From Mya arenaria (Eukaryota > Mollusca > Bivalvia > Myida > Myidae): 64,000 bases of DNA. The notes beneath the pieces are model-generated. The model was not told the DNA's origin and searched no databases. It worked only from the letters and a program-made list of their open reading frames with translations. Shown one piece after another: positions 17,691 through 53,451 of the stretch. Both the position numbers and the translations under genes were made by a program. Numbering within the stretch: position 1 is the stretch's first letter; the number at the start of each line of letters is the position of its first letter. Location of the stretch: contig NC_069136.1 in NCBI RefSeq assembly GCF_026914265.1, positions 17,847,228-17,911,227 of the forward strand. The letters run 5' to 3'.

Positions 17691-17730
<40 letters not shown>

Positions 17731-20700: not shown

Positions 20701-23700
20701 ATGACCTGATTGAAGCTGAAGATGAGCTTGATGCTATTCAAGCGCAGCGACAATTGGATGATAGAGATGAAGACGATGAAGGTGAAGACGGTGATGATGA
20801 AATCGATAGAATGATAAACGAGTTTAGGGATTCTGCCCTTACTGGTAAAAATTTGGTTGAACTTAAAGTGAAGGTTGCTGCAACAGCGCATCAGAAATCA
20901 GTTGCACTGGATGTAAATGCCCTCGATGAAAAGCCACAGAACACACAAGAAGGTGAATGGAAGACCCAGAAGAAAGAGAGAAAGAAACAAAAGAGAAAAC
21001 TGCAGATGAATCTGTCAAAAAACGAAGTCATGTCAGAAGAGGACCTTGCTGCTGTCACGGACATTTGGCATATTTCCACAGAGGACAAATGGAAACTGTA
21101 CAGACTTTGGATCAAGAAGTATCAAGACCACCAGCTTGAGAAAATTAAGGAGAAAGAAGAAGAGTTTGATGCTGCAGCTGCAAGGTATAAAGAGGCACTC
21201 ATGCAGGAAGACAAGGAGATTATGCGACACTCAACAATTATAGGTATGACCACAACTGGAGCAGCTAGATATCAGCTAGTCTTACAGGAAATTCGATCTC
21301 GAATCGTTGTTGTTGAAGAAGCCGCGGAAGTTCTAGAAGCGCACATCATTACAACACTGAGCAGAGGCTGTGAACACTTGATCTTGATTGGTGACCACAA
21401 ACAGCTAAAACCAAACCCGACAGTTTACAAATTGGCAACAGAATATAAACTGGACGTCTCTTTATTCGAACGCATGATTAACAATGGAATTCAATGTGAC
21501 TGCCTGGAGCTTCAGCACCGAATGCGACCAGAGATTGCAGAACTGATAAAGCCCATTTATAAAAACTTGCGGAACCATAGTGATGTCCAAAACTACGAAC
21601 CGATCAGGGGAGTGGCTTCAAACATGTTCTTCATCACTCACAGCGAGCATGAAGCTAATGATGAAGATTTGAGAAGTCATTCAAACGTTCACGAAGCTGA
21701 ATATATAGTTGAGCTTTGTAGGTACTTGATCAAGCAGGGATACGAAGCACAACAGATCACTGTTCTTACTCTGTATTCCGGTCAGCTGTTTTGCCTCAAA
21801 GGTCTTATGCCTAAAAGCGAATTTGAAGGTGTCAAACTCACAGTTGTTGACAACTACCAGGGCGAGGAGAACGATATCGTTCTCTTATCACTAGTAAGAA
21901 GCAACAATGATGACTCAATCGGTTTTCTTAAGACGGACAACAGGGTCTGTGTTGCTCTTTCAAGGGCAAAGAAGGGCTTCTATGTCATTGGCAACTTCGA
22001 ATTGCTACAAAGACGATCAAAACTGTGGAGTGAAATCGTAATTGACATGAAACAGAAAAAGAGATTTGGAGAAGGCCTTTTACTGCAGTGTCAAAATCAT
22101 CCTGATGAAAAACCATTAGAAGCAAAAATTGCTCGCGACTTTGCTAAAGCTCCCGAGGGAGGATGCAATAAACGATGCGGGCAGCGGCTTGACTGTGGAC
22201 ATCTTTGTGAACGATTCTGTCATCCTCTTGATCAGGATCATAAGGGAGAAACAAGCAGATGTAGAAAACGTTGCAATAAGATTATATGCGGCAACAAACA
22301 CAAGTGCCCACTACGATGTGGCCAGAAGTGTGAGTCTTGTAAAGAGGAAGTGGAGAAAATAATACCAAGATGTGGGCACGTTCAGAAAGTGCAATGTTCT
22401 ATCCCTCCAGCCGACTTCACGTGTCTAAAAGCTTGTCAATCTATATTGCCTTGTGGACATAAATGCCAGTCGAAGTGCGGCATGGCGCATACACAGGACT
22501 GCGGGATAAAAGTCGAGAAGACATGGCCATGCGGCCATAAAGCGCAGATAAAATGTCACCAGGAAGATACAGCCATTTGCCCTGCTGCATGTGATGGAGC
22601 TTTGAGCTGTGACCACCGATGTCGAGGAACATGTGGGCAGTGCTTTCAAGGCAGATTGCACGTTCCATGTCAGAATGAGTGTATGAGAATTTTGGTATGC
22701 GGACATGAATGCCAGGACAGATGTAGCCAATGCCCACCCTGTAAAAGACCTTGTGAGAACCAATGCCAACATAGTAAATGCCCTCGGAGATGTGGCGAAT
22801 TATGTGCACCGTGTAGAGAACCATGTACATGGAGATGTGAACACTATAAATGTACGAACATCTGCAGTGAGCCATGCGATCGCCCTCCGTGTGACAAAGC
22901 ATGCAGGAAACGACTAGCCTGTGGTCACCCCTGCATTGGGCTATGTGGGGAACCATGCCCGACGGACTGTAGGGTTTGCGATAAGCAGAAAGTTACCGAA
23001 ATTTTTTTCGGAGATGAAGACGAAGAAGACGCTAGGTTTGTTTTACTTCAAGACTGTAGAATGCGTTGTATTTTCGAAGTGAATGGGATGGATACATACA
23101 TGGAAACAAAAGTCGATGAAAAGGGAGAAATAAAACTGAAGGATTGTCCAAAATGCCGCACTCCGATAAGAAGAACAGTTCGGTACAGGTCGACCATCAA
23201 TCAAACACTAACGGATATTGAACAAGTTAAAAGTCGTGTCCTTGTAAATAAAACAAGATTGCGAAAGCTAAGAGAAGACATAAGGCAAACGTTGGAGGAG
23301 ATTGAAGACGAGCGAAATAAATTGATTTTAAGGAGAAGAATGGAAAAAGCTTACGACGAGCAAGCAGAAAATGCATTGGCCGCTCTTTTGAATCAGTCGC
23401 GCTTTTTGTCACAAATTGGCAAGCAAAAGTCAAACTGGGCGAAACTGAAAGGACTGGCTTACAAAGGCGAACGAGAGAAGGCTTTCCTACACATAGGACG
23501 GGTGGTGGACTGGATAATGTCAGAACGATCGCTTATGACTGCACAGGAGACGGAAGATGCAGAACTAGAGTTTGATCGTTTACGGGCGCAGTTGAAACTT
23601 CTGATGTTTCAAATGCGTGCAAATGAAAAACGTATTCAGTTAGATAATACATTGAAAGCAAAGATTCGTGACGCCGAAAAGACCTTAAACGGAACCGACA

Positions 23701-24336
23701 AATTTAAAGGTGATGTAAAGGCCAAAGTTGAGGACTGTTTAAGGGCTTTACAGAACATAATACCAACAACAGAGCTTGGGATTTCAGAAGAAGAGAGGAT
23801 AATGATTGTAAAAGCAATGGAGCTCCAAAAAGGACACTGGTTTAAATGTCGAAAAGGTATGGAAATATCATTTTAAAACTAACACTGATATAACTTGGAA
23901 TTGTTATTAATAGAGTATGCTGATTAAATTCGAAATATTGCACATTTTATTAAATGAATTTCAACGTACCATTGGTATTTCAAAATAGCTTGTTAGATTC
24001 TCTAATGTACTTGTAAATGTCGTGTCTTACTCCAAGTACACTAATGGTCACATAAATGTTGACTGCATTAAGCATTATTTTTAACATTCATGAAGGTAAC
24101 CAAGTTATAACGGTTGAAATAATAACCGTGGTTTTGTAGGTCACGTGTATGCCATAGGTGACTGTGGGGGCGCTACGATGGAGAGTCGCTGTCCCGAGTG
24201 TAATTCCCGGATAGGTGGTGCCGACCATCGCCTTCGGGCGGACAACGTTCTGGCGACGGAAATGGATGGGGCCGACCACGCTGCCTGGTCTGAACAAGCC
24301 AATATGGTGAACTATGGGTTTGATGCCAGATTTTAA
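14869..24336 (+). CDS. ZNFX1: NFX1-type zinc finger helicase ZNFX1, complete seven-exon gene
   Basis: Exons: 14869-14903, 15865-16280, 16569-16706, 16871-17006, 17764-17869, 19209-23856, 24140-24336. They add to 5,676 nt, 1,891 residues; human ZNFX1 is about 1,918. Order: short N terminus; RG-rich stretch (about 43-67); helical armadillo-like region (about 75-275); SF1/UPF1-like helicase with Walker A GPPGTGKT (569-576), EEAA box (980-983), GDHKQLKP, QHRMRPEIA and VALSRAKKG; cysteine-rich NFX1 fingers (about 1260-1535); coiled coil; and a C-terminal RZ finger (HWFKCRKG, then HVYAIGDCGG and CPECNSRIGG) split by the last intron. An acidic and then lysine-rich insert lies between Walker A and EEAA. 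Known role in other animals: antiviral dsRNA sensing and small-RNA granule function; RZ fingers carry ubiquitin-ligase chemistry in RNF213. The exon 4 donor GTGCGA was chosen because it is the only one that gives a phase joining exon 5. Confidence 0.95.
15386..15775. mobile_element. Possible foldback element in ZNFX1 intron 1
   Basis: The ends share AAGGGCGTA in inverted orientation (near 15386 and 15775), each followed by further GC-rich partly matching sequence. An internal stretch around 15,520-15,600 (caatttcgatatcat, gggaaaactt) resembles one near 44,295-44,380. No clear target duplication was found, so this is tentative. Confidence 0.35.
17240..17465. repeat. Two strong inverted repeats in ZNFX1 intron 4
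   Basis: GGTGACCC...GGGTCACC forms a hairpin of about 32 nt near 17255-17286. Shortly after, GTTACGGGGTTAGTA and TACTAACCCCGTAAC form a perfect 15-bp inverted repeat with a loop of about 55 nt (about 17374-17460). Inside the loop, CCCGATATGGG and CCATATTCGGG extend the pairing. It may be a small foldback transposon; no target duplication was identified. Confidence 0.55.
17694..17728. repeat. (CA)n microsatellite
   Basis: A pure CA dinucleotide run lies in ZNFX1 intron 4, a short distance upstream of the exon 5 acceptor at 17763. Confidence 0.9.
17870..19208. other. ZNFX1 intron 5
   Basis: An AT-rich intron holding the SINE at about 18,290-18,540. No other feature is recognised. Confidence 0.6.
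18290..18540 (+). mobile_element. tRNA-derived SINE, degenerate copy
   Basis: A tRNA-like head (ctatccggttagaacagc, then a box-B-like gggtttgatttcccaccc) is followed by the body phrases gtatgtgagttttgtttgtg, ggttttccctgggttatccg and atcgtgccaaaacgag. Similar bodies are seen near 26,300, 54,730, 60,455 and 62,745. This is the pattern of the V-domain/Meta-type SINEs of bivalves; the exact family is not verified. Confidence 0.6.
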
Positions 24337-27530: not shown

Positions 27531-29026
27531 TCAATTTCCATCACAACCTCGGATGTATGCTGGTACATCAGTAGAAGTAGTTTATGGAATTTCAAATAAA
27601 AGTATTTATTAACTGTACTGTTTTACCGCGTATCTTATATTAATAAGTTTATATTGATTGCCAGTGAAGTGTTTAAACAAATACTCAATGAATATTCCTA
27701 AGAGTAGAGTCAAGGTTTAACTTCTGAATTAAAATTACTACGCGATCTACTTTCAGCGTAGTTAAATGCAAAGCTTTCTGACATTGTAAACTGTCTAAAT
27801 ATAGGTCAGACACCACTAAGTACATTTCCTATATACTATTTCGTCAATTGACCAATTTGCATGCAATACAACACTGATTTCTGGTGTTTCTCGGCCCCAA
27901 ACCGTATAGGGGGTGAAAGCTCCACTTGTGTACTAAACAAAAGTCTGAGTCAATGGTCTGAGATGGTATAACCTTGATTTAATTCACTGTCATATTTTAG
28001 TTTAAAGAAATATGGCATGCTACAATGAGTCTACACTTCCAAACTGGTGTAATTTGCCCTACATCCGAGGTTGTTTTTTGTTGGTAAATGGCTGGTGTGT
28101 TCCTTATGTATCCTACAAGAGGATTGAATCCGTAACCCTGATATTGCAGCTTTAAACGTAGCATGAACAATATATCAATCGGCTAAATCGACGTTCTGTA
28201 GCTATATTGGATTGTAGTCCGTTGTAATTTCTGCAAAGACATAAAAATGCCAACGCCTGTCTGCTTATCCCCCCATGCATAGAAGGTGAATAACTCGACA
28301 ACCATAACAGTAAAAGTAATGTACCTTGTTATGAATGTGCGTAATGTTTTTAGCAACAACAACATGTGCTACAAGTTAGTTTTTTTCATTTAGATTAATT
28401 ATTGAGGTATGACGACGCCGACAACATCGCCAAAGCAATTTCAATAGCCTGGTTTTATTTCGTTGAAAATGTAAACCAGCTTAAGACAGTTATCATTCTT
28501 TTTACCTATTTTATGTTTGACATAATTATGATGCGGCTAACATTTTCCTATTTTTAAATGTAGATTACCATACAGAACCATCGACATGCGTATCCGATCC
28601 ATCGTCCCAAATTGCGCCATCCTAAGTGCTACATTAGATCCGGTCTTTTCGCGCTTCCTCCCACAGGAACCGAAAAAGAAGTTCCATGAAGTTATGAAAA
28701 GTTCATATCGACAATTTTAGAGGAGGTTGTTTTTGTTTTGTTTGTTTATTTGCTGAAGTTGATGTTGCTGTAGTTTTTTGGTGGGTGTGGTGCGCTTAAA
28801 TACAGATAACAATTTAGAACATTTAGTTCCATCTTTCGCACTATAGAAAACTAGGTCTGTATCGTTTTCCGAAAATCTAAGTCATTGTCTAGTTATTGTT
28901 TTTAGAGATGACATACATGTTATAGCAGTGAGAAATAAGTACTTTCGTTTTTGAATTTTCTGTAAAAGGTCGATATGGCAATGATAAACAAATTGAAGTA
29001 AAGATCAATGAAGTATCGTGAACATC

Positions 29027-29064
29027 ATGGCGGATAGACTAGGATGTGATGAACATTATATGTG
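29027..29064 (+). CDS. Exon 1 of the ZNFX1 paralogue
   Basis: It reads MADRLGCDEHYM with a GTAAAT donor in phase 2, matching MADGFGRDENY of ZNFX1. The sequence upstream also matches the ZNFX1 5' flank (gtactttcgtttt, aaaggtcga.atggcaat). Confidence 0.75.
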
Positions 29065-29356
29065 GTAAATATAATTCAATATTAATATCAGTAAAATGTG
29101 TTATATGTCACTGTTTTATTTACTATGTCTAGTGTAAATTGTTTTATTCTTATGTTATTTGCAGTAACCTGTAAGTTTGACATGCATTAGCAGGTTCACG
29201 GAGGGGACTTATTATCGTTCTACTTTTTTGTCACCATCGAATAAAAAAGAAATAAAATGCGCTCAATTTCAACGAATCTCACATATATTGCTCGATAATT
29301 ATTGAACTTTTTTCCTTAACAAAATATTTTAAAATTCGAATTCGTTTTTTATTGTG

Positions 29357-29595
29357 AAACTGAATAATACTATGCTCGAATCACCATTGACAAGGGTTTT
29401 GTTTGCAGATAAAAATGTCAGTAAACAACAATGTTTTCATTCATTATATTCGTTATCATATATTATTCTGAAACATAATATAACTATGCACGAATCACCA
29501 AAAAACAAGGGTTTGTTTGCAGATAAAAATGCTATGTCAGTAAACAACAATGTTTTCATTCATTATATTCGATATCATATATTTATGGAAAGATC
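29357..29595. repeat. Two ~115-bp tandem copies in intron 1 of the paralogue
   Basis: Both copies carry tatgc.cgaatcacca, gtttgcagataaaaatg and aacaacaatgttttcattca. The second has small insertions. Confidence 0.75.
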
Positions 29596-29875
29596 AATTT
29601 CGTAAAGACCTCCAAATTAACAATAACCTGTACATACGGCGCGTTATCACGGGTTGAATTAACCTAGTATGATAAGGCATGACGCTTTCATACAAACTTG
29701 TTATATAGTTTTATTTTAAATGTCCGTGTCATCGAGGATTTCGGGGGACCTCTATTTTCGTCGCCGATGGTAACATTGATTATTGATATATTACATTGAT
29801 TGTTTAACCGAAACTTGACATTTAAGATCCTATCATCAATGACTTTTGGAACATATTTTCTGGTCTTATCTTTAG

Positions 29876-31645
29876 GTTACGACCTCCAATAACTAATGGA
29901 CCGCCTTTCCAACATAATGACGACGAAGACGCGTGGGATTACGAAGCAGATCGAGAGACACTAAGCCGAGGGGGTCGGGGCGGGGGAAGTGGTCAAGGCA
30001 GAACACACAGGGGAGTGATGCTCAGCCGACAGCCACTAGACAGCAGGTTTCTTAATAGACTGGCGGAACGGGAGCCAGCGGATATACTTCAAACGATTTC
30101 CGACCCGCAGACGGATCTTAGAGACACTCTGGCTCGCATCGCTACGGACAACACTATGATCGCTCTACTGTTAAGGGTTCTTGCAAAGGCGTTCACATGT
30201 CAATCGCAGCCAGAGTGCCTCAACCGGGTGCTACTTATCATCAAAGAGGCAAAGGTCTTCGACACCGGTAATGCAACACATTCAGCCTTACAGAATATGT
30301 ATTATAATCAAAACAATTTAATTACCTCGCTAATTTTATATGCACCTGTATATATAGTATATATCTACACTCTACTTGAACTGTCCCCTAAAACAGTGTT
30401 TTGTTCAACCTGATATGACGCCTTACTCTTTGTGTTATTGGTATCTGTTTATCTTAACGTCCCCCCGCACAAAAAAACAAACACATGTTTGCATGGGGCA
30501 AGACTTCGATAGAACGAAATTCAATTAGTTAGAGAAGTTATCATTCAAATTCGAAAAGAAATATCATACAAGGCATATATCTAACTATCCATGCATATTT
30601 TGCAAATTCAATTGTTTGTTTTGAAACATTTTACTTGTTTTGAACTGAATCATCGATATATTAAACTTTTGCTCGATCCGATTTCCATCTGCCATGCTGT
30701 TTAAGACAACGCTCGCTTACAACGCCGGAATTAGCCGCCTGAGTCGTCCCACTAGCGCGCAACAAGTGCGTACCAAAATTTAAACCCGGAGTCACCGACT
30801 TAACTTTTCCAACAATAAATTCCCTAGCTCTGGTAAAACTAAGCTTTTTACACTTAGAACCTGAACGACAAGCAGACCTAAACAAATACATATCTGAATC
30901 TGAATTCAAACCAGGACAATACATATGAAAAGCATTTCCATGGGGCACGCGCTATTTATGCCTTTGGCAACGTATACATTCGCGATACACGTCGATGTTA
31001 CTTTAACGCACATGAATTATCATATACATCTTTATATCTCAACTCACTGACCTCACTGTATCTAAAAATTCCTGCGTAACTAAGTAATGCAAGTGACAGA
31101 TCACGTAAAAAATTACATCAGTGTAATCTATATACATGTCACATGTTTTATAACATGATCTATTCGCAATACATCCTTTTTCACAATAGGTTTAGAGTTA
31201 TGTCGCTTTGCATATTCTAACATGCTTTTCACAATATAATTATGTTGGATCAGCCAGATCATTAATCCTGTGAAACCACCTTACAGCGTAAAATGATGCT
31301 GAAAAAACTGCATCTGATTTGCCCGAGCCTATCAAATTCGACAAAAACATTGCAACGTGATTAGATTGTGCATGACTCGTGGAAAATCCTTTAGCACCAC
31401 AAAATACTTTAAATGCTTTCAAGTAAGATGTATATTTATCTACTGTCCCGTCCGCCATTGACGCTATACTGTGTGTCTGCCCTCAGAGTGTGCCTCGTTT
31501 TCTATTTCTATTATATTATGACTCTGTGTCTTAAAGCTCTAAAATACTAAGTATGTCCTATTGTGCTTACAAATATCTATATGGTGATATGCGCTTTTCA
31601 AATCGTACGCGAAAACAAAACTTGACCGGTCAAACATCTGTAGAG

Positions 31646-31733
<88 letters not shown>

Positions 31734-32957
31734 TCAAACTGAATGTTAAATGAATGCAAATATGGATTTATGTACCTACAGTCGAGGACCAATCTAGGTT
31801 TACCAGACTTGCCGTAAGCCACGGTTAATGGGTTCACAACCCAAGGTTGTTCATGCACTTCTGATATAAAACCTTCAGCCACCAACTAGCGTATTTCTGT
31901 TTCTACAAACGCCAGGTTATCTCTTGCGGACTTATTGTTCTTTGAATGAACTTGTGGAGGAACACTCTTAAATGGAAGCTTATATCCATTTCGTACCACA
32001 TCTAGAATATATCTATCCTCGGTAATGTCTTCCAACTTGTGTATATTTACTCTAATGATATGATGCCTTACTCTTTGTGCTATTTGTAAATGTTTATACT
32101 GCTTTGTGTCATCATGGCTATGTTTGTATGCAACTGTTGACAATGAAATTTAAATGTCATTTTCGTAAACATGTTCATGATTCAGTGGTGTCCTACTTTA
32201 TGGACATGCAGGGCGAGGACAGCCCGCACGTGCGGCGCGGGTTCCAACAGCCGCTTCGGGACATGGTCACCGTCATGTCAAAATTCGTCGAGAAAAACCC
32301 GTCATCTATCACGGAGATTATAGGTACGTATCAGTAGTACCTAGGTGTCTGTTAACTGGCATTGCATACAAACTAATATATATATATATTCTGTTACATT
32401 TCGAAAACCCACATTGAAATACTTTGTTACTTGACTCCTGTCATATGTAATCAGTTATTCAGTAAACTGGAGTTTTCTTGAATTTACGTCTTCTCTCCAA
32501 CGCTTGTCATGTTTAAGAACAGGATAGGGCGAATGAGCAGATCCAGGGTTTAACATAAAAGATGGCGTGGGGAAGGTATTGGTTGTATGTTTCCTGCCAT
32601 AAACGTCGATTCTTGTAACTCGACAGACAACCTCTTATGTATTAAATAATAGGAGTGATTAATTTCTAAGCAAACTCTAGTTTTGGTATGTATGAGTGCA
32701 TGAAAACTACATACATCGCCATTATAGTGTAAGAGCTTAGCGTTTACGAGTTAACATAGCTTCCTCAAATGAAGGTACGAGCGAATATTGCTTACCTTTT
32801 TGAACGTTTGTTGTCTTTAAGGGCTTCACTCTGTACTGCAAATGGTCATAGATGGATTGCGCGAGACTACTGACGTTATTGATGACGATATACTACAAAA
32901 CTTCCGGTTACTGACAGAAACAAAGGAGGCCATTCTGCGAAAACGAACCGCTAAAAG
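29876..32957 (+). CDS. N-terminal module A (exons 2-4) of the ZNFX1 paralogue
   Basis: Three exons, at 29876-30267, 32186-32323 and 32822-32957, have open frames and GT-AG borders. They include a shorter glycine/arginine run (GGRGGGSGQGR), EREPADILQTISDPQTDLRD, LLLRVLAKAFTC, VVSYFMDMQGEDSP and RLLTETKEAILRKRTAK. These correspond to the helical region before the helicase in ZNFX1. Intron A2-A3 carries the DIRS-like fossil. Confidence 0.75.
30460..32045 (-). mobile_element. Broken DIRS-like tyrosine-recombinase retrotransposon
   Basis: On the minus strand, a reverse-transcriptase fragment (about 31,735-32,045, with NPLTVAYGKSGKPRLVLDCR) precedes tyrosine-recombinase fragments (about 30,661-31,458, with HLLRASGTT and a terminal HGRW motif). 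RT before YR is the DIRS/Ngaro order. A long TA microsatellite lies between the parts. Related host intron sequence (ccttactctttgtg) is found on both sides, near 30,410 and 32,060. The element is clearly incomplete, with several breaks, and is a fossil inside the paralogue's intron. Confidence 0.7.
31650..31731. repeat. (TA)n microsatellite
   Basis: About 40 TA repeats lie inside the DIRS-like fossil. They give spurious YIYI frames on both strands. Confidence 0.95.
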
Positions 32958-32998
32958 GTGCGACTCTTGCGACCATGTTCAGCTTTGTGATGCATTTG

Positions 32999-33076
32999 TA
33001 ACGGTCCGCTGTAGGCGGCGGATGTGCGTTCAAAGTGTAACGGTCCGCTGTAGGCGGCGGATGTGCGTTCATAATA
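32999..33076. repeat. 39-bp perfect tandem duplication
   Basis: The phrase acggtccgctgtaggcggcg starts at 33,001 and again at 33,040. It lies just inside intron 4 of module A and is unusually GC-rich for this region. Confidence 0.85.
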
Positions 33077-33685
33077 ATATTTCGTATAAAACGGAAGTAC
33101 GTTCGTAGTACGTATGTTAACTTGGTAATATGCAAATTAGCAAAGCCCGGGATCTGTGAGAATAGAGAAGTTAGTGTATATAAAAACCAGTGGACCCCTT
33201 CAAGGTCGAGCATGCTTTTCCCTGAAGGGATCTGTTGGTGTTTCATTACGCCAGAAAACTCGGCTATCTGGTGTTTATTTGGCTGGCTCGCACGTTACAC
33301 ATTTAATACCTGCTGCATCCATAACGTGAGGTTTTGAAATTATAAACAAATGTTAACTTTCAATTACGTGGGTAATGAGGGACGAAACTGGATAGCAACA
33401 TGTTGTCAGGACAACGTTCAATAACTAGCTAGCGATATAGGAGAGTACTGTTGAAATTGATCCGCATGTTAGTTACTGAACTTTTACAAATTGCGATATA
33501 GGAGTTAGTTTGTAGAAGGAAAATTAGTTATACTATTTTATTTCCAATGTCGGTGTCATTGAGGATTCCGGGTCGGTCTCTATTTCCGTCGCCGATGATT
33601 ACATTGGTTGCTTCAACCAAAACTTAACATTTAAGATCCTTTTGCCTTTTCATATATATTTTCCAAGCAATTGTCTTATCTTAAG

Positions 33686-35044
33686 GTTACGGCCTCCCCA
33701 ACAGAGTGACAACGAGGATTCGTTGGATGACAAAGCAAACCGAGAGACACGCGGCCGAGGGGGACGGGGCGGGGGAGGGGGTCAAGGACGAACCCGTAGG
33801 GAAAGGGCGCCCAGCAGACAACCACTAGACCTAGACAAAAGGTTCTTGGAGAGGCTAGCGAACAGGGAGCCGGCGGATATACTTCAAACGATTTCCAACC
33901 CGCAGACGGAGCTAAAAGACGTCCTGGACCGCATCGCCACGAACGACACTTTGATCGCTCTACTGTTAAGGGTTCTTGCAAAGGCGTTCACGTGTCAATT
34001 GAAGTCAGAGTACCTCAACCGGGTGTTAATTATCATCAAAGAGGCAAAGGTCTTCGACACAGGTAATACAACACATCCAGCCTTACAGAATATGTATTAT
34101 AATCAAAATAATGCAATTACTAAAGTCATTTTCAACGGTATGTCAACTTATTATTACTCTATCACTTATTTTATACACGCATGTATATAAAGTACATACT
34201 TGAACTGAGATCTTACTATTTAGGTAATACATCCTGGCCTTTTTTAATCAAATCATATCAAATTATATAAAGAAATTCTACACTTGACTTTAATTGTTTC
34301 TTAAATACAAACTATGTGTTTGTTCACTCTAATGATATTACGCCTTTCTCTTTGTGCTATTGGTACATGTTTATTCTGCTATATGTCGTCATGGTTATGT
34401 GTGTTTGTTAATGTCGATTAAATTAAAGAAATAGACTTTTGGAAACATGGTTATGTTTCTTATGTTTCAGTGGTTCCCTACTTTATGGACATGCAGGGCG
34501 AGGACAGGCCGCACGTGCGGCTCGGGTTCCGACAGCCGCTTCGGGACATGGTCACCGTCATGTTAAAATTCGTAGAGAAAAAAACGATTTCTATCATGGA
34601 GATTGTAGGTACGTACTAGTAATTTAGGGTTTTATCATATGCCATTGCATACAATCTTAAACAAATGTAATAGTATCACTAAGCCATTTTGAAAACCCAC
34701 ATTACAATTTGACTGGTGTCAAGTGAGTTCAGTAATTAAGTAATTTTCTTTACAAACTCTAGTTTGGTATGTGTTGATGCATGAAAACTACATACATTGC
34801 CATTATAGTGTATAGTGTAAAAGCTCAGCGTTTCCAATTTATATAGCTTACTTTAATTGATGGTATGAGCGTATTTTGCTTACCTTTTGGACGTTTGTTG
34901 TCTTTAAGGGCTTCACAAATTGCTGAAAACGGTCATAAATAGACTGCGAGAGGGTACTGACGTCATTGATGACGACATACTTCAAAACTTCCGGTTACTG
35001 ACAGAAACAAAGGAGGACATTCTGCGAAAACGAACTGCTAAATG
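33686..35044 (+). CDS. N-terminal module B (second exon 2-4 set) of the ZNFX1 paralogue
   Basis: Exons 33686-34062, 34471-34608 and 34909-35044 are open and in the same phases as module A. Landmarks are GRGGRGGGGGQGR, NREPADILQTISNPQTELKD, VVPYFMDMQGEDRP and RLLTETKEDILRKRTAK. The sequence before exon B2 matches the end of the module A intron 1 (cgtcgccgatg, acatttaagatcct), so the duplicated unit includes intron DNA. No separate exon 1 is seen for this set. Confidence 0.75.
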
Positions 35045-35597
35045 GTGCGACTTTTGCGATCATGTTCAGCTTTGCGATGCATTTAAAGCTACTTCATCAA
35101 TAACATTATTGAAATTATAAACAAATGTTTCAGCGTAAATGTTTTCAGTCAGGAGGGTTAAGGGTGACGAAATTGTTTTGTAACATATTGTCAAAGACAC
35201 TGTTTAATATCTATCGAGCGATACAGGAGAGTATCGTTGAAATTGATCCGCATGCTAGTTACTGGACTGTAATGCTAGAGTCTACTTGGCGTTACATCTC
35301 AGATATAGGATTAGTTTATAGAAGAAAAAGGCATGAGTTGGTAAAAATGGTACAACAGGTTATAGCCCCTTCCCAAATTCCCTTTGTAAATACATGTAGT
35401 TTCATAAAATGCATGCGTTTACCATCAAAGCACTTAAAGTGCTGAGCTACTTGGGAAATGGAACTTATTTCAACGACTTTTCATGTCAGATTCATAAACA
35501 ACAAACAAATATGTAACAATATGCCATAAATCAGACATGACTTAATATACCTTAACGTATCAATATAACTCCAGTTTCTTACGCTTATACATTTCAG

Positions 35598-37396
35598 CGG
35601 TAGGTTTGGGGAAGGACCTTTTCTGTCGGGTCAAAACCAACCAGAAGAAAGGCCATCAGGAGCAAATATAGCTCGCGACTTCGCAATGGATCCCGAGGGA
35701 GGATGTAATATTCGATGCAGATATAGGCTTGACTGTGGGCATGTTTGTGAACGATTCTGTCATCCTCTGGACCAGGATCATAAGAAAGAATCAAGCAGAT
35801 GTAGAAAACGTTGCAACAGGATCCTATGTGTCAACAGACACAAGTGCCCACTACGATGTGAACAGAAATGTGAGCCTTGTAAAGAGGAAATGGAGAAAAT
35901 AATACCAAGATGTGGGCACGTTCAACGAGTGTAATGTTCTATCCCTACCGCCGATTTCACATGTCAGGAGGCTTGTCAATCAATACTGTCTTGCGGACAT
36001 AAATGTCAGTCGAGGTGCGGCATGGCGCATACACAGGACTGCGGCTTAACAGTCGAAAAGATATGGCCATGCGGCCATAAAGGAAATATAAAATGTCACC
36101 AGAAAGATAAAGCTATTTGCAGTGTTGCATGTGATGGGATTTTGAGCTGTAGTCACCGATGTCGAGGGACTTGCGGGCAGTGCTTTTATGGCAGATTGCA
36201 CGTCCCATGCCGGAATGAGTGTAAGAGAACTTTGGTTTGTGGACATGAATGCCAGGACAGATGTAGTCAATGCCCACCGTGTACAAGGCCCTGCCAGAAC
36301 CAATGCCAACATAGTGACTGCCCTCGGAGATGTGGTGAATTATGTACACCGTGTAGAGAACCATGCATATGGTCGTGTGAACACTATAAATGTACGAACA
36401 TCTGCAGTGAACCATGCGACCGACCTCTTTGTGATAAACCATGCAGGAAACGACTAGCATGTGGTCATAGCTGTATTGGGCTATGTGGGGAACCATGCCC
36501 GGCGGACTGTAGGGTTTGCGACAAACAGAAGGTTACCGAGATCTTCTTCGGAGATGAAGACGAAGAAGACGCTCGATTTGTACTACTTCAAGACTGCAGA
36601 ATGCGTTGCATCTTCGAAGTGAATGGGATGGATACATACATGAAAACAAAAGTCGATGAAAAGGGAGAAATAAAACTGAAGGATTGTCCAAAATGCCGCA
36701 CTCCGATAAGAAGAACGATTCGGTATAGGTCGACCATCAATCAAACACTAACGGATATTGAACAAGTAAAAAGTCATGTCATTGCAAATAAAACAAGATT
36801 GCGAAAGCTAAGAAAGGACATAAGGCAAACTTTCGGGGAGATTGAAGACGAGCAAAATAAATTGATTTTAAGGAGAAGAATGGAAAAAGCTTACGACGAG
36901 CAAGCAGAAAACGCATTGACTGCTCTATTGAACCAGTCGCGCTTTTTGTCACAGATTGACAAGCACAAGTCCGAGTGGTCGAACCTAAAAGGACTGTCAT
37001 ACAGAGGCGAACGAAAGAAGGCTTTCTTGCTCATTGGAAGAATGGTGGATTGGATAATGTCAGAACGATCGCTTATGACAGCGCAGGAGACGGGAGATGC
37101 TAAATTGGAGTTTGATCGTTTACGGGCGCAGTTGAAACTTTTGATGTTTCAAATGCGTGCAAATGAAAAACGTATTCAGTTAGATAATACATTGAAAGCA
37201 AAGATTCGAGACGCCGAAACGACCTTAAACGGAACCTGCAAATTTAAAGGTGATGTAAAGGCCAAAGTTGAAGACTGTTTAAGGGCTTTACAGAACATAA
37301 TACCAACAACGGAGTTGGGGATTTCAGAAGAAGAGAGGATAATGATTGTAAACGCAATGGAGCTCCAAAAAGGACACTGGTTTAAATGTCCAAATG
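35598..37396 (+). pseudogene. NFX1-type zinc-finger and coiled-coil block of the ZNFX1 paralogue
   Basis: It is homologous to the last 40% of ZNFX1 exon 6, from FGEG onward, with cysteine-histidine fingers, ITEIFFGDEDEEDARFV-like and CPKCRTPIRRT segments, a coiled coil and GHWFKCPNG at the donor. One in-frame TAA at 35932-35934 interrupts an otherwise open 1.8-kb frame. Everything downstream of the stop is still well preserved, which suggests that the stop is young or that the region is used another way. Confidence 0.8.
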
Positions 37397-37707
37397 GTAT
37401 GGAAAACTCTTTTATTTTAAAACCAACACTGATATAACTTGGAATTGTTATTATTATAGTATGCTGATTAAACTTGGGATATTGCACATTTTATTAGTGA
37501 ATTCAACGTACAATTGATATTTAAAAAAAGCTTGTGAGTTTCTACAATCTACTTGTAAATGTCGTGTTTTACCCCTAGTAAAATAATGTTCACATTAATG
37601 TTGACTGTATAAACTTAGTACTATTAAGCATTATGTTTTACATGTTCAAACGTTACTAAGTCATAACGGTTAAAATAATAACTTATAATGTATATGTGGT
37701 TTTGTAG

Positions 37708-37904
37708 GTCACGTGTATGCCATAGATCAATGTGGGGGCGCTACGATGGAGAGTCGCTGTCCCGATTGTGAATCCTGGATAGGAGGTGCCAACCATCGTC
37801 TGCGAGCCGACAACGTTCTGGCGACGGAAATGGATGGGGCCGTCCACGCTGCCTGGTCTGAACAAGCCAATATGGCGAACTATGGGTTTGAAGCCATATT
37901 TTAA
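37708..37904 (+). CDS. RZ-finger terminal exon of the ZNFX1 paralogue
   Basis: It reads HVYAIDQCGGATMESRCPDC and continues with ESWIGGANHRL, ending TAA. With HWFKCPNG from the previous exon it keeps the RZ-type cysteine/histidine pattern. It corresponds to 24140-24336 of ZNFX1. Confidence 0.8.
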
Positions 37905-39890
37905 GAGGTTTACGAAAGCGTTTACTCGCTGAACCTTAAGGGGCAGTACTTCGAATGTTTTGAACAATATGATCAATATTGAATGGTTGCTTTTGAAGCA
38001 TAGTATAAATGAGTGTATACGAATGCATGTTTGTATGTACATACATGTACTGCTTTGATGTTTTTTTTTATTTTTGATTATGAATCATATTTTATTTGTA
38101 AGATATCTAATGTACCAAATGCCATAGTTACATGTATTTCCAACTGATATTCTAAAACATATAAAAGTATGCAAGGAATGTTTAATTCGAAATTAATGGA
38201 AATAATTTATTTTTTATTTTTAAAATGACTGAAATATTGTTCTAAGTATGTTGTGTACATCCCTTTTTAGCTTTTAATATCTGCCTTTTACATGTTAAAG
38301 ACCTTTCCGTTACAATGTGTTGTTATTTGTCTAGAAATAATGTTGTTCATTTGTATGCAATTGAACTATGCCATAGACATTACATAACACATGCGGAGCG
38401 GAGTTCATTTGTTACAGATGGCATTATGCTCGTTGTACTTATTGTAATTAACTTTAATAGATATAGTTATGCATATTTCTGATTATTGTAAATCGATGTA
38501 TGATGGTTGTCCTTAAATTGGGAATTAATAAATTATTTAAATTCTGGTTAAATTAAAAATTCCAAAATAATTACTACATATTAAGTATTTACAATGATCC
38601 CTTTCAGATAAGTTTGAAAATGTCATGGCTGAACATACAAAATTAAAACTTTTATAGACAGTTGAAACAGACAGGAGTTATTTAATTTGTATATTTATAT
38701 AATTAATATGGTTTATATATAATCGATATGATTAATATAATATTTAACAATTAAATGCTATTAAACAATAATGAAATATATGTTTACTTACCCGTTTTAC
38801 ACAAAATTTATTTTGATCGATAGAAGACAAACCATTGTAATTTTCTGCTAGACAATGAATGCGTAAATTAACTTATCAAATTGAATTAATTGTACAGTAT
38901 GGTATATTAATTATTTTTATCAATTTACTTAAACATATATACGTATGTATGATTTATTGTAAGCAGAAAATGATTCTTTTGGTGGTAGAATCCTATCATT
39001 AGGGTGTATTTTTGGTTTTATTTCGCGGATTTTGTTCGGTTTCTAATTTGATTAAACAGCTAGTTAAATCATTTTAATAAAAAATTATCGAGTAAACTTA
39101 TTTCAATATTCGGAAATGTTTAGTTAATTGTTTTTTGTAAGTGTAAGACATGTTTTAATTATATGCTTTATTTATGCCCGTTTATAATGCATTGTTAAGT
39201 TAAAAAAATGCATATCCATATATTAAAACTGTAATATGTTGTGCGAACATATCTGTATGATTCGATTCCCACTAAAAACTGCACATTTATACTGTTTTTG
39301 TTTATTGAGTACATACTTGAGATTTCCCGAATTTTGTCTAGTTTTTTTAAATCTCATTAATAATGTTTTAATTACAGCTTTTTAAATAATTTTAAATGCA
39401 ATTAACAAGTTACTATTTTCAGTATATAGATGTTTTCAGTTAACTACGGCTATTATCTCAGTCAATGCTTTAAATGTATGATTATTTTGATAATGACAGT
39501 AAAGTTTTTTGTTATTGTTCTTTAACAGTTGGAGATATATACATGTACTGAAACTGTGACCTATCTTAATTAGTTTGATTCTTTTCTCCCAATAAATATA
39601 ACTGCACATGTACACTTATATTTTGTATGAGCGCAAAGTTCTTTTATCCTTTGTCCCCTAGGATGAATGAAGTATTCAAGTGGAAATGATGTCCGCCTGT
39701 TAAGAGTTAAAGTTTTTACCTCGGCTGAGGCACCTTGTGGATGTAGTTCGTTTAAATCCGAATTTTTACTCCAATGTGCTGTATTTGATTAGAATGAACT
39801 AAATACGATATTAATTTTTCACGTCGTTTATTTTCATCATTTGAACTTGTGTACTTGTACTCCATAGTTGATGCGTTAAATCACTTTTAT
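37905..39890. repeat. 3' flank shared with ZNFX1 (segmental duplication)
   Basis: Non-coding, AT-rich DNA collinear with 24,337-26,260. Similarity by eye ends near 39,890. Confidence 0.65.
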
Positions 39891-40208
39891 ACGTAAAATT
39901 GAGACGCTATTGACAACAATTCATTTATCATAACATAAATATTAACTTTCCAAAATGTTGATTTAAGTTTTTCTTGGCTCCATAAAAAACAAAAAACAAG
40001 ATAAACATTTATTTTTATTTTATAAAATTCGCGATGATTCGCGATCTGAACATATCCGAAGATGTTGAAGATGTTGCGTTCACCTGAAAGTATTCGCAAT
40101 TGCAGAAAGGCAATTCGATTAAGGAATTGAAGTTAAGGTGTATTATTATATGTCTGAAACCATATATCAGAATGAAGAAACCGATTGTTTATAAAAGGGC
40201 AAGTTGAT

Positions 40209-40680: not shown

Positions 40681-43600
40681 TTTTAGCTCCACTGGCCGAA
40701 GGCCATGGAGCTTATGTCGTCACAGATTGTCCGTCGTGAGTGCGTGCGTGCGTGCGTGCGTGCGTAAACTTTTACTTTAAACGACATCTCCTCTGAAACT
40801 GATAAGCGGATTTTGACAAAACTTCACAGGAATGTTCCTTTGGTGGTCCTTTCCCAAAATTGCTCAAATGGTTCCGGTCCATTGCACAATATGGCCGCCA
40901 GAGCTAAAAATAGCAAAATCTTTAAACGACATCTCCTCTGAAACGGTTCGGCAGATTTTGATGAAACTTGACAGTAATGTTCCTTGGGTGGTCCTTTATT
41001 AAAATTGCTCAAATGGTTCTGGTCCATTGCACAATATGGCCGCCACAGCTAAAAATAGCAAAATCTTTAAACGACATCTCCTCTGAAACGGATAGGCAGA
41101 TTTTGATGAAACTTGACAGAATTGTTCCTTGGGTGGTCCTTAATCAAAATTGCTCAAATGGTTCCGGTCCGCTGCACAACATGGCTGCCAGGGCAAAAAA
41201 ATAGAAAAACCTTTAAAGAACATCTTCTCAGAAACCGATGATCAGATTTTGATGAAACTTAACAGAAATGTTCCTTGGATGGTCCTTTACCAAAATTGCT
41301 CAAATGGTTCCGGTCCATTGCACAATATGGCCGCCAGAGCTAAAAATAGCAAAATCTTTAAACGACATCTCCTCTGAAACGGTTCGGCAGATGTTGATGA
41401 AACTTGACAGTAATGTTCCTTGGGTGGTCCTTTATTAAAATTGCTCAAATGGTTCTGGTCCATTGCACAATATGGCCGCCACAGCTAAAAATAGCAAAAT
41501 CTTTAAACGACATCTCCTCTGAAACGGATAGGCAGATTTTGATGAAACTTGACAGAATTGTTCCTTGGGTGGTCCTTAACCAAAATTGCACAAATGGTTC
41601 CGGTCCGCTGCACAACATGGCTGCCAGGGCAAAAAATAGAAAAACCTTTAAAGAACATCTTCTCAGAAACCGATGATCAGATTTTGATGAAACTTAACAG
41701 AAATGTTCCTTGGATGGTCCTTTACCAAAATTGCTCAAATGGTTCCGGTCCATTGCACAATATGGCCGCCAGAGCTAAAAATAGCAAAATCTTTAAACGA
41801 CATCTCCTCTGAAACGGTTTGGCAGATTTTGATGAAACTTGACAGTAATGTTCCTTGGGTGGTCCTTTATTAAAATTGCTCAAATGGTTCTGGTCCATTG
41901 CACAATATGGCCGCCACAGCTAAAAATAGCAAAATCTTTAAACGACATCTCCTCTGAAACGGATAGGCAGATTTTGATGAAACTTGACAGAATTGTTCCT
42001 TGGGTGGTCCTTAACCAAAATTGCTCAAATGGTTCCGGTCCGCTGCACAACATGGCTGCCAGGGCAAAACAAATAGAAAAACCTTTAAAGAACATCTACT
42101 CAGAAACCGATGATCAGATTTTGATGAAACTTAACAGAAATGTTCCTTGGATGGTCCTTTACCAAATTTGCTCAAATGGTTCCGGTCCATTGCACAATAT
42201 GGCCGCCAGAGCTAAAAATAGCAAAATCTTTAAACGACATCTCCTCTGAAACGGTTCGGCAGATGTTGATGAAACTTGACAGTAATGTTCCTTGGGTGGT
42301 CCTTTATTAAAATTGCTCAAATGGTTCTGGTCCATTGCACAATATGGCCGCCACAGCTAAAAATAGCAAAATCTTTAAACGACATCTCCTCTGAAACGGA
42401 TAGGCAGATTTTGATGAAACTTGACAGAATTGTTCCTTGGGTGGTCCTTAACCAAAATTGCTCAAATGGTTCCGGTCCGCTGCACAACATGGCTGCCAGG
42501 GCAAAAAATAGAAAAACCTTTAAAGAACATCTTCTCAGAAACCGATGATCAGATTTTGATGAAACTTAACAGAAATGTTCCTTGGATGGTCCTTTACCAA
42601 AATTGCTCAAATGGTTCCGGTCCATTGCACAATATGGCCGCCAGAGCTAAAAATAGCAAAATCTTTAAACGACATCTCCTCTGAAACGGTTCGGCAGATT
42701 TTTATGAAACTTGACAGTAATGTTCCTTGGGTGGTCCTTTATTAAAATTGCTCAAATGGTTCTGGTCCATTGCACAATATGGCCGCCACAGCTAAAAATA
42801 GCAAAATCTTTAAACGACATCTCCTCTGAAACGGATAGGCAGATTTTGATGAAACTTGACAGAATTGTTCCTTGGGTGGTCCTTAACCAAAATTGCTCAA
42901 ATGGTTCCGGTCCGCTGCACAACATGGCTGCCAGGGCAAAACAAATAGAAAAACCTTTAAAGAACATCTTCTCAGAAACCGATGATCAGATTTTGATGAA
43001 ACTTAACAGAAATGTTCCTTGGATGGTCCTTTACCAAATTTGCTCAAATGGTTCCGGTCCATTGCACAATATGGCCGCCAGAGCTAAAAATAGCAAAATC
43101 TTTAAACGACATCTCCTCTGAAACGGTTCGGCAGATGTTGATGAAACTTGACAGTAATGTTCCTTGGGTGGTCCTTTATTAAAATTGCTCAAATGGTTCT
43201 GGTCCATTGCACAATATGGCCGCCACAGCTAAAAATAGCAAAATCTTTAAACGACATCTCCTCTGAAACGGATAGGCAGATTTTGATGAAACTTGACAGA
43301 ATTGTTCCTTGGGTGGTCCTTAACCAAAATTGCTCAAATGGTTCCGGTCCGCTGCACAACATGGCTGCCAGGGCAAAAAAATAGAAAAACCTTTAAAGAA
43401 CATCTTCTCAGAAACCGATGATCAGATTTTGATGAAACTTAACAGAAATGTTCCTTGGATGGTCATTAACCAAAATTTGTTAAATGGTTCCAGTCCACTG
43501 CACACCATGGCTGCCAGAGCTAAAAAATAAAAAAAAAAAACTTTATACGACTTGTCGTCGAAACCGATGACCTTTTTTCGATAAAACTTGACAGAAATGT

Positions 43601-43810
43601 TTGTTTGGTGCTCCTTTACTCAAATTGTCCAAATCATTTCGGTCCACTGCACAACATGGCAGCCAGAGCTATTAAAGTAATTTTTTTTTTAAATAACTTC
43701 TCCTCAAAAATTGATGATTGTATTTCTATGAAACTTGACGAAAATGTTCGTTAAGTGGTCTTTGCTTGAACCTTTTGGCCAGTGGAGCACAGGCACTGAT
43801 GTGCCTCTTG
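40681..43810. mobile_element. Helitron-like (pearl/Helentron-type) element with higher-order tandem core
   Basis: The left end is a near-perfect hairpin (AGCTCCACTGGCC then GGCCATGGAGCT, 40685-40712), followed by a GCGT microsatellite (about 40,739-40,766). The core is about 20 monomers of roughly 145 bp. Three monomer types, with cggcagat, taggcagat and gatcagat variants, alternate as a 435-436-bp higher-order unit repeated about six times. The last monomers are divergent. The right end has GGCCAGTGGAGC, the inverse of the left end, and a hairpin AGGCACTGATGTGCCT at 43791-43806. Family assignment is inferred from the architecture. Confidence 0.7.
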
Positions 43811-44541
43811 TTTATGTGTATCATAGAGTACTAAAACACATTTTTTTACGATTCTCAGTCCAAGAGATCACCCTAGGACCAATCGCTCGAATCAGGTTAC
43901 TGGTAGCTCGACTAGCCAAAAATGCGGTCCAAATACCAAGTAACTGTGGTTAGTTCTGGGACCAATCGTATTCCTAATAATATTTCGATTGTATTTGAGA
44001 TATGAGCAAGGCTAACATTTGTGTACGCCGCAGCCATCCAAACGATCACAATAGCTTGACTTTTCAGTAAAAGCAACAATAGACGAGCTAAAATGGTTCC
44101 CCGACCTATGATCTTTACTTGAAGGTACTCACTCATGTTTGTTATAAATATTCTTTTTTGAATGCCGTAATATGTGGCAAATCAATTGGAGTATACAACT
44201 AATTAAGATATCAAAAGCTGGATATTGACTTTACAAGCGTGGGTTTTCAATCCAATAAAACCAACATACTTCTTTATACCATAACTGTATTTGTTTCTGC
44301 AATTTCGATATCAAAGTAAACTAATGATAAAATAAGTGTTTTTAGATGATTTTCCGGGAAAACTTTTTTTTCGGGATAACTAATTCTTGGTTCAAAAACA
44401 TGGTGATCGAGTACCTTTAAAGCATGATATTGCAATCAATGAACTTTTTTCCGACATAGAATCAAGGTATACAAAATATCAGGGTACTTCCGAGAAATGC
44501 TGACGTATAGAACAAAGCTCGTTTAACTTACACAGGAACAA
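43811..44541. other. Unassigned intergenic DNA
   Basis: No gene is recognised. The stretch around 44,290-44,390 resembles part of ZNFX1 intron 1 (about 15,520-15,600), which suggests a dispersed repeat. Confidence 0.4.
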
Positions 44542-45011
44542 CAGTGTGTGTATAATAATACCACGTGATAAATTGCGTCATAAATGCTACGTCTGAAGGC
44601 ATCATTTTGCTTCGAATGAAGACTTTAAACGAAGATAACTTTCTTATTTCATCACCATTTTTAAAGAATCATAGCGCAGGCTACGCCGTTCACGGAGCCC
44701 GGCCTTCAGTCTTTTACCAGTTTGAAACACTTCGACAAACCTTTTCACAATACGGCCGTCTGAAGGAGCACTGTCAAATCATTATTTTGGAAACAGGTTT
44801 GTCCAAGTGTTTGATGAAACTAATTACCTTATCACACTCCGGTAATAAAGCGAAGGCGGGGCTCTTTAAGCGGCATAGACTGCTCTTTGTTTTGTTTAAA
44901 ATGGTATAGTAAAGGAAAAGTTATCTTTGATTTAAGTCTTCATTTTAAGCAAAATGTTGCCATCCGACATAGCATATATGACGTAATTTATCACGTGGTA
45001 CACACACACTG
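44542..45011. mobile_element. MITE with CAGTGTGTG ends and 5-bp duplication, copy A
   Basis: Inverted ends of 70 bp or more include ACGTGATAAATTGCGTCATA and its complement. The element is flanked by AACAA on both sides. Copy B lies at 53,994-54,479 with TATTC on both sides. It has no transposase; internal open frames are not meaningful. Confidence 0.8.
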
Positions 45012-45223
45012 AACAAGGCCCTCTCAGAGTTGCCCCCAGTGAAACAATTGTTCACATTAATTTAAGATGTGCAATACCTCAAGAATTATACAAAATTAAG
45101 ACCATTTTCTAGATTTATTTCAAAATTCACTTAAATCAATACACAACCAAGTATCTAACGATTCTATATTTACAAAACAGATCATCAACTAAATGAAGCA
45201 CATTCTCTACCATAACTTAATCA

Positions 45224-45401
45224 TACAGTCGAAACCCGTTGGCTCGAACTCGCTTGGCTCGAATTCCTCTTTGGCTCAACGAGATGTTAGGGCCTGATTT
45301 CTGTAAACTGAAGGTAAACATTTCAGCTTGACTTGAATTTTCCAAGGCTCGAGGTATTTTTGCTGGTCCCTTGGAGTTCGAGCCAACGGGGTTCGACTGT
45401 A
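45224..45401. mobile_element. Tc1/mariner- or pogo-type MITE, copy 1
   Basis: Inverted ends CAGTCGAAACCCGTTGGCTC and the complement of GAGCCAACGGGGTTCGACTG are flanked by TA dinucleotides. The related copy at 48,181-48,372 also has TA flanks. Confidence 0.8.
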
Positions 45402-45560
45402 AATGAACATGGAACATTTATTTCAGTGGCAAACAACACACTTATGAAGTATGTTACAACTAATACATTGAAAACTACAGCGAAAAGCCCGGTTGTCAAA
45501 CAATTTAAGTAAGAGGCAAAGAGACAGGAGAAAATGATCACTTACTCCAAATACTCTTAA

Positions 45561-45843
45561 AGCTGCACTGTCACAGATTGACCATTTTGACAACTTTTTT
45601 TTGTCTTGGAATGAGCCAATTTTTTATTTAATGTCTGGAATCGGGTGATATAAAAGACTGGTGCTCAAAGATCAGAATGCTAACGTTTTAAGAGAAATGT
45701 AAAATTCAGCAGTTTTCAAAACAATTGAGATCTGTTCTATTGTGACTTAAATAACTGATTTGAAAGCATTGGTGCCAGAATCAGCTGATTCTGAGACAAA
45801 AAAGAAGAAGTTGTCAAATCGGTCAATCTGTGAGAGTGCAGCT
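45561..45843. mobile_element. TTAA-flanked foldback MITE, copy 2
   Basis: Its ends are AGCTGCACTGTCACAG and the complement of CTGTGAGAGTGCAGCT, with TTAA at 45557-45560 and 45844-45847. It is uninterrupted, so it serves as the empty-site reference for the nested insertion in copy 3. Confidence 0.8.
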
Positions 45844-45847
45844 TTAA

Positions 45848-46530
45848 CATTAGAAACAAATTATAAAAGCATCTATCTGACTGAACACCTGATTAATGTA
45901 AAACAATTAAAGAAATATTTAAACATAGCTTCTTATAAAATTTAAAAAAAATATTTTTATTAATTTTATGAATGTAATAAACTCTAATTCAAAATCTATT
46001 TATTTTAAAATCCTATGTAACGTACATTTATGTGATCTTGAATGCCTTGTGACCCTTTTATAAAGAATTGTATCTAAAGAGTTTCATATGTAGGGAAGGA
46101 ATTCATTCAACACTGTATCGAAAATGATGTTACTCCCATGGTTTTTTAGCATCGAAAGATTACAAAATGTCATTTCACGTCCAATTTTGCTTTAAATAAA
46201 AAACAAATTCAATTCAGTACAAACAGTAGGAACTTGAGCTATAAAGCATTTTCCCCTTTCAAAGATACCAAAGGTCTACATGCATTGAAACAAAGTTTTT
46301 CGAAAGGCTCCTTAAAATGACATGCAAGACATTTTCTGTGCATTGGATACCAAATAATGTCTAAAAATTCAATATTTCAATATATAAATAATATATATTA
46401 TAATTTTGTAATAGATTATTACTTCATCCTATTACTTATGAACAAGAGGTATATAAGTATAATGTTTATCAATGTGTTTTAAGATCATTTACTGGTATTC
46501 TAACAGATCTTCATGTTCATGTATAACTAA
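45848..46530. other. Unassigned AT-rich intergenic DNA
   Basis: No gene, RNA or repeat is recognised. Confidence 0.4.
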
Positions 46531-46850
46531 TGCACGAGTCAATTGTAACCAAGATCCCCCACCAGGTCCGAGGAATAGCATGGACTTTGACTTTCGGTCC
46601 AGCAAATCTTGGGTAAAATCCCCGCCCTGCAGGGACACACTACTGGTAAAATCCTCGCCAAATGCCCCCCCCCCCCATCCCAGGGACATCTTAGGTAAGG
46701 CCCATTCCACACTATTTTCAGCGCAAACAAAACCACCACATTCACCTGGCACTGCAGTGCCCCCTGGAAGGTGAAAACACAGCCCATTTTCCCGGCTGTC
46801 CCCGGTATTCCCCAGACCTGGGGGGACAGTGGTTACAATTGACTGATGCA
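46531..46850. mobile_element. Harbinger-like MITE, copy 2
   Basis: Ends TGCACGAGTCAATTGTAACC and the complement of GGTTACAATTGACTGATGCA are flanked by TAA at 46528-46530 and 46851-46853. The interior shares GGAATAGCA.GGA and cccggctgtcccggtatt-type phrases with copy 1 at 5320-5643. Confidence 0.82.
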
Positions 46851-46853
46851 TAA

Positions 46854-48180
46854 TCATAACATACAATTTAGTAATGTAAAGAAAAGTAAAATAGTTTGAC
46901 CTACAACAATAATCACAGAAATAGCATTTCAAATGTAAAATTAATCATTGAACATACTTTAAGCAAGTATATGGACATCTAATCAACAATCTGCTGACTC
47001 AATATGCTGACTTATATACTAGTATCTCTTTGTAAGTTTGTCTAATGGCTTACTGAAAGAAAGGCACAATCAACGATTGCCAAAATGTGTTTAATTACCA
47101 AAATGTTAAATGAAACTTCTAAAAGTGGTATTAGATGGTATCTTAAACTCTATGTTTTTCTTTTATAGAAATCTATCATTTAACATGAAAATTACATAAT
47201 TAATTGCAAGGTTTATATGTTAACAAGGTCAAGAACGATCAAAGTGAAAGAGCAATCATAAATTACACTATGTAAATGTTTAAAAAAGTAACAAAACAAA
47301 ACGGTCCCTGAAAATTGCCATGTATACTCAGGGTCTAAAAATGTACCCTTCTTTGCTGTAGCCGATACCGGACTACTTCCCCAAATGGCCAGAATCTGTA
47401 TTTTTTTCTCAAAATAGGCCCTGAAATTCCCCATTTAAAACAAAATAAAAAAGTACTTATATATATATTATATAATAAGAAGCTCATGATTCATTATATG
47501 ATGTCTCTGTGTGATATATTTACTGTTTAATTGATTTTTACTCCATTAATTTTGTTCCCAATATGTTTGAAAAAGTATTCTGAGAATTTGTTTCCCCCCA
47601 AAAAGCGCTAATATGTCTTCCCCATAACCAGTAAAAAGGTCCCGATACTTAAAACAAAGAAACCAGGACTGAAAATTTTAAATGTAAACAAAGAAAAATT
47701 GACAATGAATGTAGTGTGAAGTACTTTTAAAGTTTGTTTTAGAACTTGACATTCATTGTATACACATAAGGCAGGCAATAATATGTACAGATGCAACTAC
47801 ACTTCTGTACATGTTCTAGATTAATTCTTGAAAAAGCGACCACGTAGTCACTTCGGAAAAATGAGCGCAATATATATATGTATATATATATGTATATGTT
47901 GCAAATAGTTTCTGTTAATATCTTGGATGATCATATAAATTTTTGGAAAGTTGGGGTTCAAAATGTGTTTTGATGGTTTCTGAATCTGGAAAGACTAGAA
48001 AAAAACTTCAGCCATTTTTCTACAGATTTCGGACTTAGATTTCAGTGCAGAACTTTTTGTAGTTGCATTTTATCTAACTCAGTGCTCCAGTTAGCCCTAA
48101 ATAGCAGAGTAAGCATCCAGCTTCCTTATACTACACCCTACAGTGCCCTCATTTTTGACAGAGTAAAATTTAAAAAAAAG
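46854..48180. other. Unassigned AT-rich intergenic DNA
   Basis: It contains a short ATAT run near 47,870-47,900. No gene is recognised. Confidence 0.4.
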
Positions 48181-53450: not shown

Positions 53451-53451
53451 T

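Follow-up and report, generated by a model that had tools for sequence, protein, structure and literature searches.

Can a copy of the antiviral gene ZNFX1 that has lost its helicase still be a gene, or is it the remnant of one? The question is raised by a 64,000-nucleotide stretch of the Mya arenaria genome (the window; C15:17847228-17911227, in which positions are counted below unless megabases are given). Here an intact ZNFX1 gene, A, is followed by a second copy, B, which keeps the N-terminal exons, the zinc fingers and the C-terminal RZ finger and has no superfamily 1 (SF1) helicase. Most of the window has a second, collinear copy about 435 kb upstream in the same assembly, and this carries a version of each gene, A' and B'. 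We consider it probable, at roughly 0.83, that B is an unprocessed, helicase-deleted ZNFX1 duplicate whose helicase was lost before B and B' split, and that each of the two then decayed separately. The spliced model of B runs from 29027 to 37904 in nine exons (3351 nt), with AG/GT at all eight junctions and one in-frame TAA before the final stop:

29027-29064, plus strand: exon 1 with the ATG, phase 0 to 2; missing in B'
29876-30267, plus strand: exon 2a, phase 2 to 1, 392 nt
32186-32323, plus strand: exon 3a, 138 nt
32822-32957, plus strand: exon 4a, phase 2 at its end, 136 nt
33686-34062, plus strand: exon 2b, start of a second unit of exons 2 to 4 (E2-E4), 377 nt
34471-34608, plus strand: exon 3b, 138 nt
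34909-35044, plus strand: exon 4b (E4b), phase 2 at its end, 136 nt
35045-35597, plus strand: intron leading into the deletion junction, with pieces homologous to intron 4 of A by alignment
35598-37396, plus strand: zinc-finger block, by homology to exon 6 of A
35932-35934, plus strand: in-frame TAA, codon 564; CAA in A, A' and B'
37708-37904, plus strand: last exon, with the remainder of the RZ finger (PF20173, E 1.1e-22) and the natural stop

The structure of B is best read against its neighbour, whose spliced model has no internal stop:

14869-24336, plus strand: A, intact ZNFX1 gene, 7 exons, 1891 aa
14869-14903, 15865-16280, 16569-16706, 16871-17006, 17764-17869, 19209-23856 and 24140-24336, plus strand: exons 1 to 7 of A, 5676 nt in total

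In a Pfam search, exon 6 of A carries the ZNFX1 domain (PF25396) and the AAA_11 and AAA_12 helicase matches; the frame of A' is likewise open (1890 aa). Nothing in B corresponds to exon 5, or to the initial 2853 nt of exon 6, where the ZNFX1 domain and AAA_11/AAA_12 lie. Position 35602 of B aligns to 22062 of A, a codon boundary within exon 6 of A, and on the other side of the junction pieces of B between 35061 and 35424 match intron 4 of A, the last clear match being 35344-35424 to 17565-17644. From the zinc-finger block through the last exon and the 3' flank, B is 86.7% identical to A over 2.57 kb of DNA, a homology that is far above chance; A is the parent-type copy. The rebuilt models thus bear out the structural part of the initial annotation, which had described nine in-phase exons summing to a multiple of three, the absence of exon 5 and the SF1 core, and a single in-frame TAA. 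The finger block, present in B by homology to A, is one that we take to be of the NFX1 type; the Pfam NF-X1 model gave no match in A or B, and the N-terminal modules of both gave no Pfam match at 0.001. B retains the parental introns and has no uninterrupted reading frame, the TAA falling at codon 564 and the RZ finger lying downstream of it. The intron after exon 2a also contains a long run of AT dinucleotides (~31.65-31.73 kb). At ~31.8-32.1 kb, on its minus strand, it has what looks by eye like part of a retroelement, an assessment made on the open reading frames listed for the second copy.

Comparison with B' separates older events from younger ones. B' shares the helicase deletion of B, with the same junction, as well as the doubled E2-E4 unit, so both changes predate the split of the two copies. 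The disabling lesions are different in each, from which it follows that decay proceeded separately. B' lacks exon 1 (window 28975-29062 has no counterpart there). In its zinc-finger block, 598 codons long, deletions of 16 bp and 1 bp make two frameshifts, and stops stand at codon 222 (TAA) and codon 230 (TGA), the first codon being numbered 0. At 35932-35934 it has CAA; as A and A' do too, the TAA is derived in B, by a plain C-to-T change. Neither B nor B' is therefore open through the zinc fingers, and in both a stop or frameshifts precede the RZ finger and most of the other fingers. The three premature stops in the zinc-finger blocks of B and B' compare with a simulated neutral mean of ~3 for 65 substitutions. 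An assembly error behind the helicase loss or the TAA would not be out of place here, since the genome is highly heterozygous and the stretch around the locus is duplicated end to end. It is nevertheless extremely unlikely, given that the deletion has the same junction at two places several percent apart in sequence and that the TAA is a simple transition; for the helicase loss we rejected it on the first of these grounds.

Selection was estimated on the zinc-finger block. The initial annotation had proposed the ratio of nonsynonymous to synonymous substitution rates (dN/dS) of B against the intact gene as a check, with a value near one telling against its reading. The A-B pairwise value, 0.207, is indeed not near one; the measure itself misleads, because it mixes the constrained A lineage with the earlier history of B, and it was set aside as a verdict in favour of branch estimates. 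The other pairwise values are 0.079 for A-A' and 0.468 for B-B'. In a four-taxon maximum-likelihood codon model, omega is 0.094 on the A and A' tips, 0.261 on the internal branch and 0.527 on the B and B' tips, and a model in which the tips of A and B have one omega while the internal branch stays free is rejected (2dlnL 29.5). Parsimony counts on the tips, from which 24 conflicting sites and every gapped or stop-containing codon were excluded, agree: 22 synonymous to 43 nonsynonymous changes for B and B' together, against 64 to 20 for A and A' (p 3e-7). Among the 25 A-B amino-acid changes, nine were polarised by three paralogues (matches ~51% identical to A), and eight of these fell on the B side and one on the A side (p 0.04). 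Over window 32389-40053, a stretch that leaves out exons 1, 2a and 3a, B and B' differ by 4.8% in exons (133/2766) against 3.7% in noncoding sequence (177/4840); two parts stand out with 11-14%, the RZ exon and its preceding intron, and with both removed the values are 4.3% and 3.0%. The young pseudogene offered by the initial annotation as one of two readings of the TAA therefore fits well: the sister copy is differently broken, dN/dS on the tips is ~0.5, compared with 0.09 for the intact gene, and the exons diverge at least as much as the noncoding sequence.

The other reading offered for the TAA, a shortened product, would make it the proper end of a useful 563-residue protein consisting of the doubled N-terminal modules and part of the first fingers. 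Nothing interrupts the frame before that point, and the N-terminal exons are free of stops. We hold such a protein to be very unlikely: B' has neither exon 1 nor this TAA, a stop that precedes the last exon junction by ~1.46 kb would invite nonsense-mediated decay (NMD), and the N-terminal exons of B and B' differ by 39 nonsynonymous and 20 synonymous changes, suggesting that this part is relaxed.

Several observations weigh against pure decay. Omega equal to one on the B tips is weakly rejected (2dlnL 6.6, p ~0.01), and without 64 codons suspected of gene conversion it still is (2dlnL 4.5, p ~0.03); a binomial test of neutrality for B and B' gives p 0.015 with kappa set to 1 and p 0.04-0.13 with kappa of 1.6-3. 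Indels between B and B' are scarcer in exons, with 2 in 2766 against 19 in 4840 noncoding positions (p 0.011), whereas against introns alone, without the 3' flank, the deficit is not significant (7 in 2723, p 0.11). B retains 60 of the 61 cysteines common to A and A' and all 57 of those also common to the three paralogues. As the sole cysteine lost in B is lost in B' as well, none was lost on the tip leading to B, where simulated neutral change gave ~3 losses for 40 substitutions and zero in 3% of runs. B' retains 56 of the 61, three having been lost by substitution and two within its deletion. Exons 2a to 4b contain no stop in either copy, and the splice dinucleotides are intact at the eight junctions of B and also in B', apart from its missing exon 1.

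These signs of constraint could reflect a helicase-less ZNFX1 that was a real protein under selection after the deletion, a regulator or decoy of full ZNFX1 composed of two N-terminal helical modules, the NFX1 fingers and the RZ finger, and that is now being lost or is intact in other haplotypes. Omega below one at the B tips and 0.26 on the internal branch, the indel deficit against all noncoding sequence, the retained cysteines and the stop-free N-terminal exons would all fit such a history. Set against it are the breakage of both B and B', the mixture of time before and after the deletion, and of both lineages, on the internal branch, and the ability of gene conversion from A-type sequence to produce the same signals. 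B' has a cluster of A-like sites at alignment columns 585-770 that is suspected to stem from such conversion, and conversion can mimic constraint. We regard the once-selected protein as unlikely, and read the signs of constraint in B and B' as left by earlier function, together with conversion by A-type copies. The decoy or regulator suggested by the initial annotation finds no support in either copy, neither having an open frame through the zinc fingers, and a working decoy protein today appears unlikely from the sequence. Work on ZNFX1 elsewhere bears on what such a protein could do. Grouper ZNFX1 binds poly(I:C) through its P-loop NTPase part, no mutant without that part having bound it (PMC12585102), and a review presents ZNFX1 as an RNA-activated ubiquitin ligase, in which long single-stranded RNA is recognised in an ATP-dependent manner before ubiquitination (PMC13270118). 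On these accounts the parts kept in B would be without the activating part. More speculatively, a helicase-less regulator with doubled N-terminal modules may have lived on for a time after the deletion, and open haplotypes may still segregate as a polymorphic antiviral regulator; this we think quite improbable.

The preserved splice phases were central to the initial annotation, which held that B had kept all of them and that the zinc-finger block had an acceptor for the phase 2 delivered by exon 4. The phases are kept, and that acceptor lies at 35598; what they signify is small, as they are mostly inherited, and for that reason we rejected them as evidence of function. The E2-E4 unit starts and ends in phase 2, with lengths that sum to multiples of three (416+138+136 nt in A; 392+138+136 and 377+138+136 nt in B), so doubling it costs no frame. 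Six of the eight junctions of B are inherited, and the sole new one joins E4b to 35598. In the alignment this acceptor coincides in position with that of exon 5 in A and A', which takes the same phase, and it is probably at or beside that old site, although the last 170 intron bases align poorly. The acceptor scores 2.6 (-0.7 to 4.1 with exon classes left out of training). Sites scoring at least 2.6 occur at 5.4 per kb on the plus strand in other parts of the window. Thirteen native acceptors, held out by exon class, score 0.4-9.5, a range that includes 35598 and indicates a usable acceptor. Its weakness was rejected as an argument against splicing, the higher native scores of 8.2-15.3 having come from the training set.

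Taken together, the helicase-deleted, separately decayed duplicate would have arisen in the following way. B would have originated as an intron-containing ZNFX1 duplicate in a tandem cluster, and its exon 2-4 unit would have been doubled by unequal exchange or internal duplication. A deletion, ~4.3 kb long when measured on A, would have removed what lies there at about 17764-22061, namely exon 5, the intron after it and the half of exon 6 that encodes the helicase. It would have brought the zinc-finger block up against intron 4, the join probably falling on or next to the former acceptor of exon 5. Most constraint would then have been lost, B decaying through the CAA-to-TAA change, so that its transcript would face NMD, and B' through the loss of exon 1, the 16-bp and 1-bp deletions and its two other stops.

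B resembles ZNFX1, as seen in A and metazoan orthologues, in exon order, phases, the NFX1-finger block and the RZ finger; it differs in lacking exon 5, the ZNFX1 domain and the SF1 helicase, in its doubled exon 2-4 unit and in its internal stop. With unprocessed pseudogenes it shares stops or frameshifts, a position beside paralogues and, in its own case, retained introns. In the assembly 13 loci have both helicase and zinc-finger matches, and among the loci found a zinc-finger match without a helicase match occurs only in B and B' (2/15); three more weak helicase matches come without a zinc-finger match, all these counts being lower bounds. One of the 13, at C15:38.006-38.012 Mb, has internal stops, showing that decay of ZNFX1 copies is not unique to B, and unlike B this pseudogene-like copy still has its helicase matches. 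Aplysia reportedly has three potential ZNFX1 genes (PMC9334734). Titles and abstract openings on ZNFX1 in molluscs, its paralogues and its pseudogenes made no mention of a helicase-less clam copy. If B is a mere pseudogene, it is a routine example of how copies arise and die in an antiviral gene family that has expanded. It also carries a caution: kept splice phases and a single stop are no evidence of function when exons are copied as units. If the helicase-less form was or is functional, it offers a natural test of which parts of ZNFX1 act without the helicase.

The upstream copy may be either a retained second haplotype or a tandem duplicate. The Mya arenaria reference was assembled from a highly heterozygous animal with FALCON-Unzip and purge_haplotigs (PMC10663159). 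Four probes each found a partner locus 0.43-0.44 Mb away on C15; the probe at 17.763 Mb pairs forwards and that at 17.825 Mb backwards, which places the duplicated units end to end. Substitutions between the window and the upstream copy amount to 0.5% at 50186-62850 and 1.5% at 43808-50197, and at 29.1-31.4 kb identity is just 86-87%. A and A' differ by 22% over 210 aligned bases of the intron before exon 6 and by 3.8% in exon 6, with dS 0.23 in the zinc-finger block. If the two copies are alleles, the ZNFX1 locus would be a hyperdivergent haplotype; this, if true, would point to an antiviral gene under balancing selection and may exceed the helicase-less copy itself in interest. Two more ZNFX1-like loci, at C15 37.48 and 38.09 Mb and 611 kb apart, agree exactly in match score and in frame length (2165 aa), which again points to haplotypes that were retained or to a recent duplication on C15.

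Elsewhere in the window, a tandem repeat with a period of ~107 bp occupies 8735-9947 and is present in the upstream copy too. Two near-identical 137-aa frames 872 bp apart (41836-43121) point to a recent local duplication. An MSL2-like gene on the minus strand (51132-52217) has an MSL2 RING domain (PF16685) and a CXC domain (PF16682) within a single open frame, and a protein with an IgGFc-binding domain (PF17517) is encoded on the minus strand at 61278-62546, with an EGF-like stretch recognised by eye at 60805-61107.

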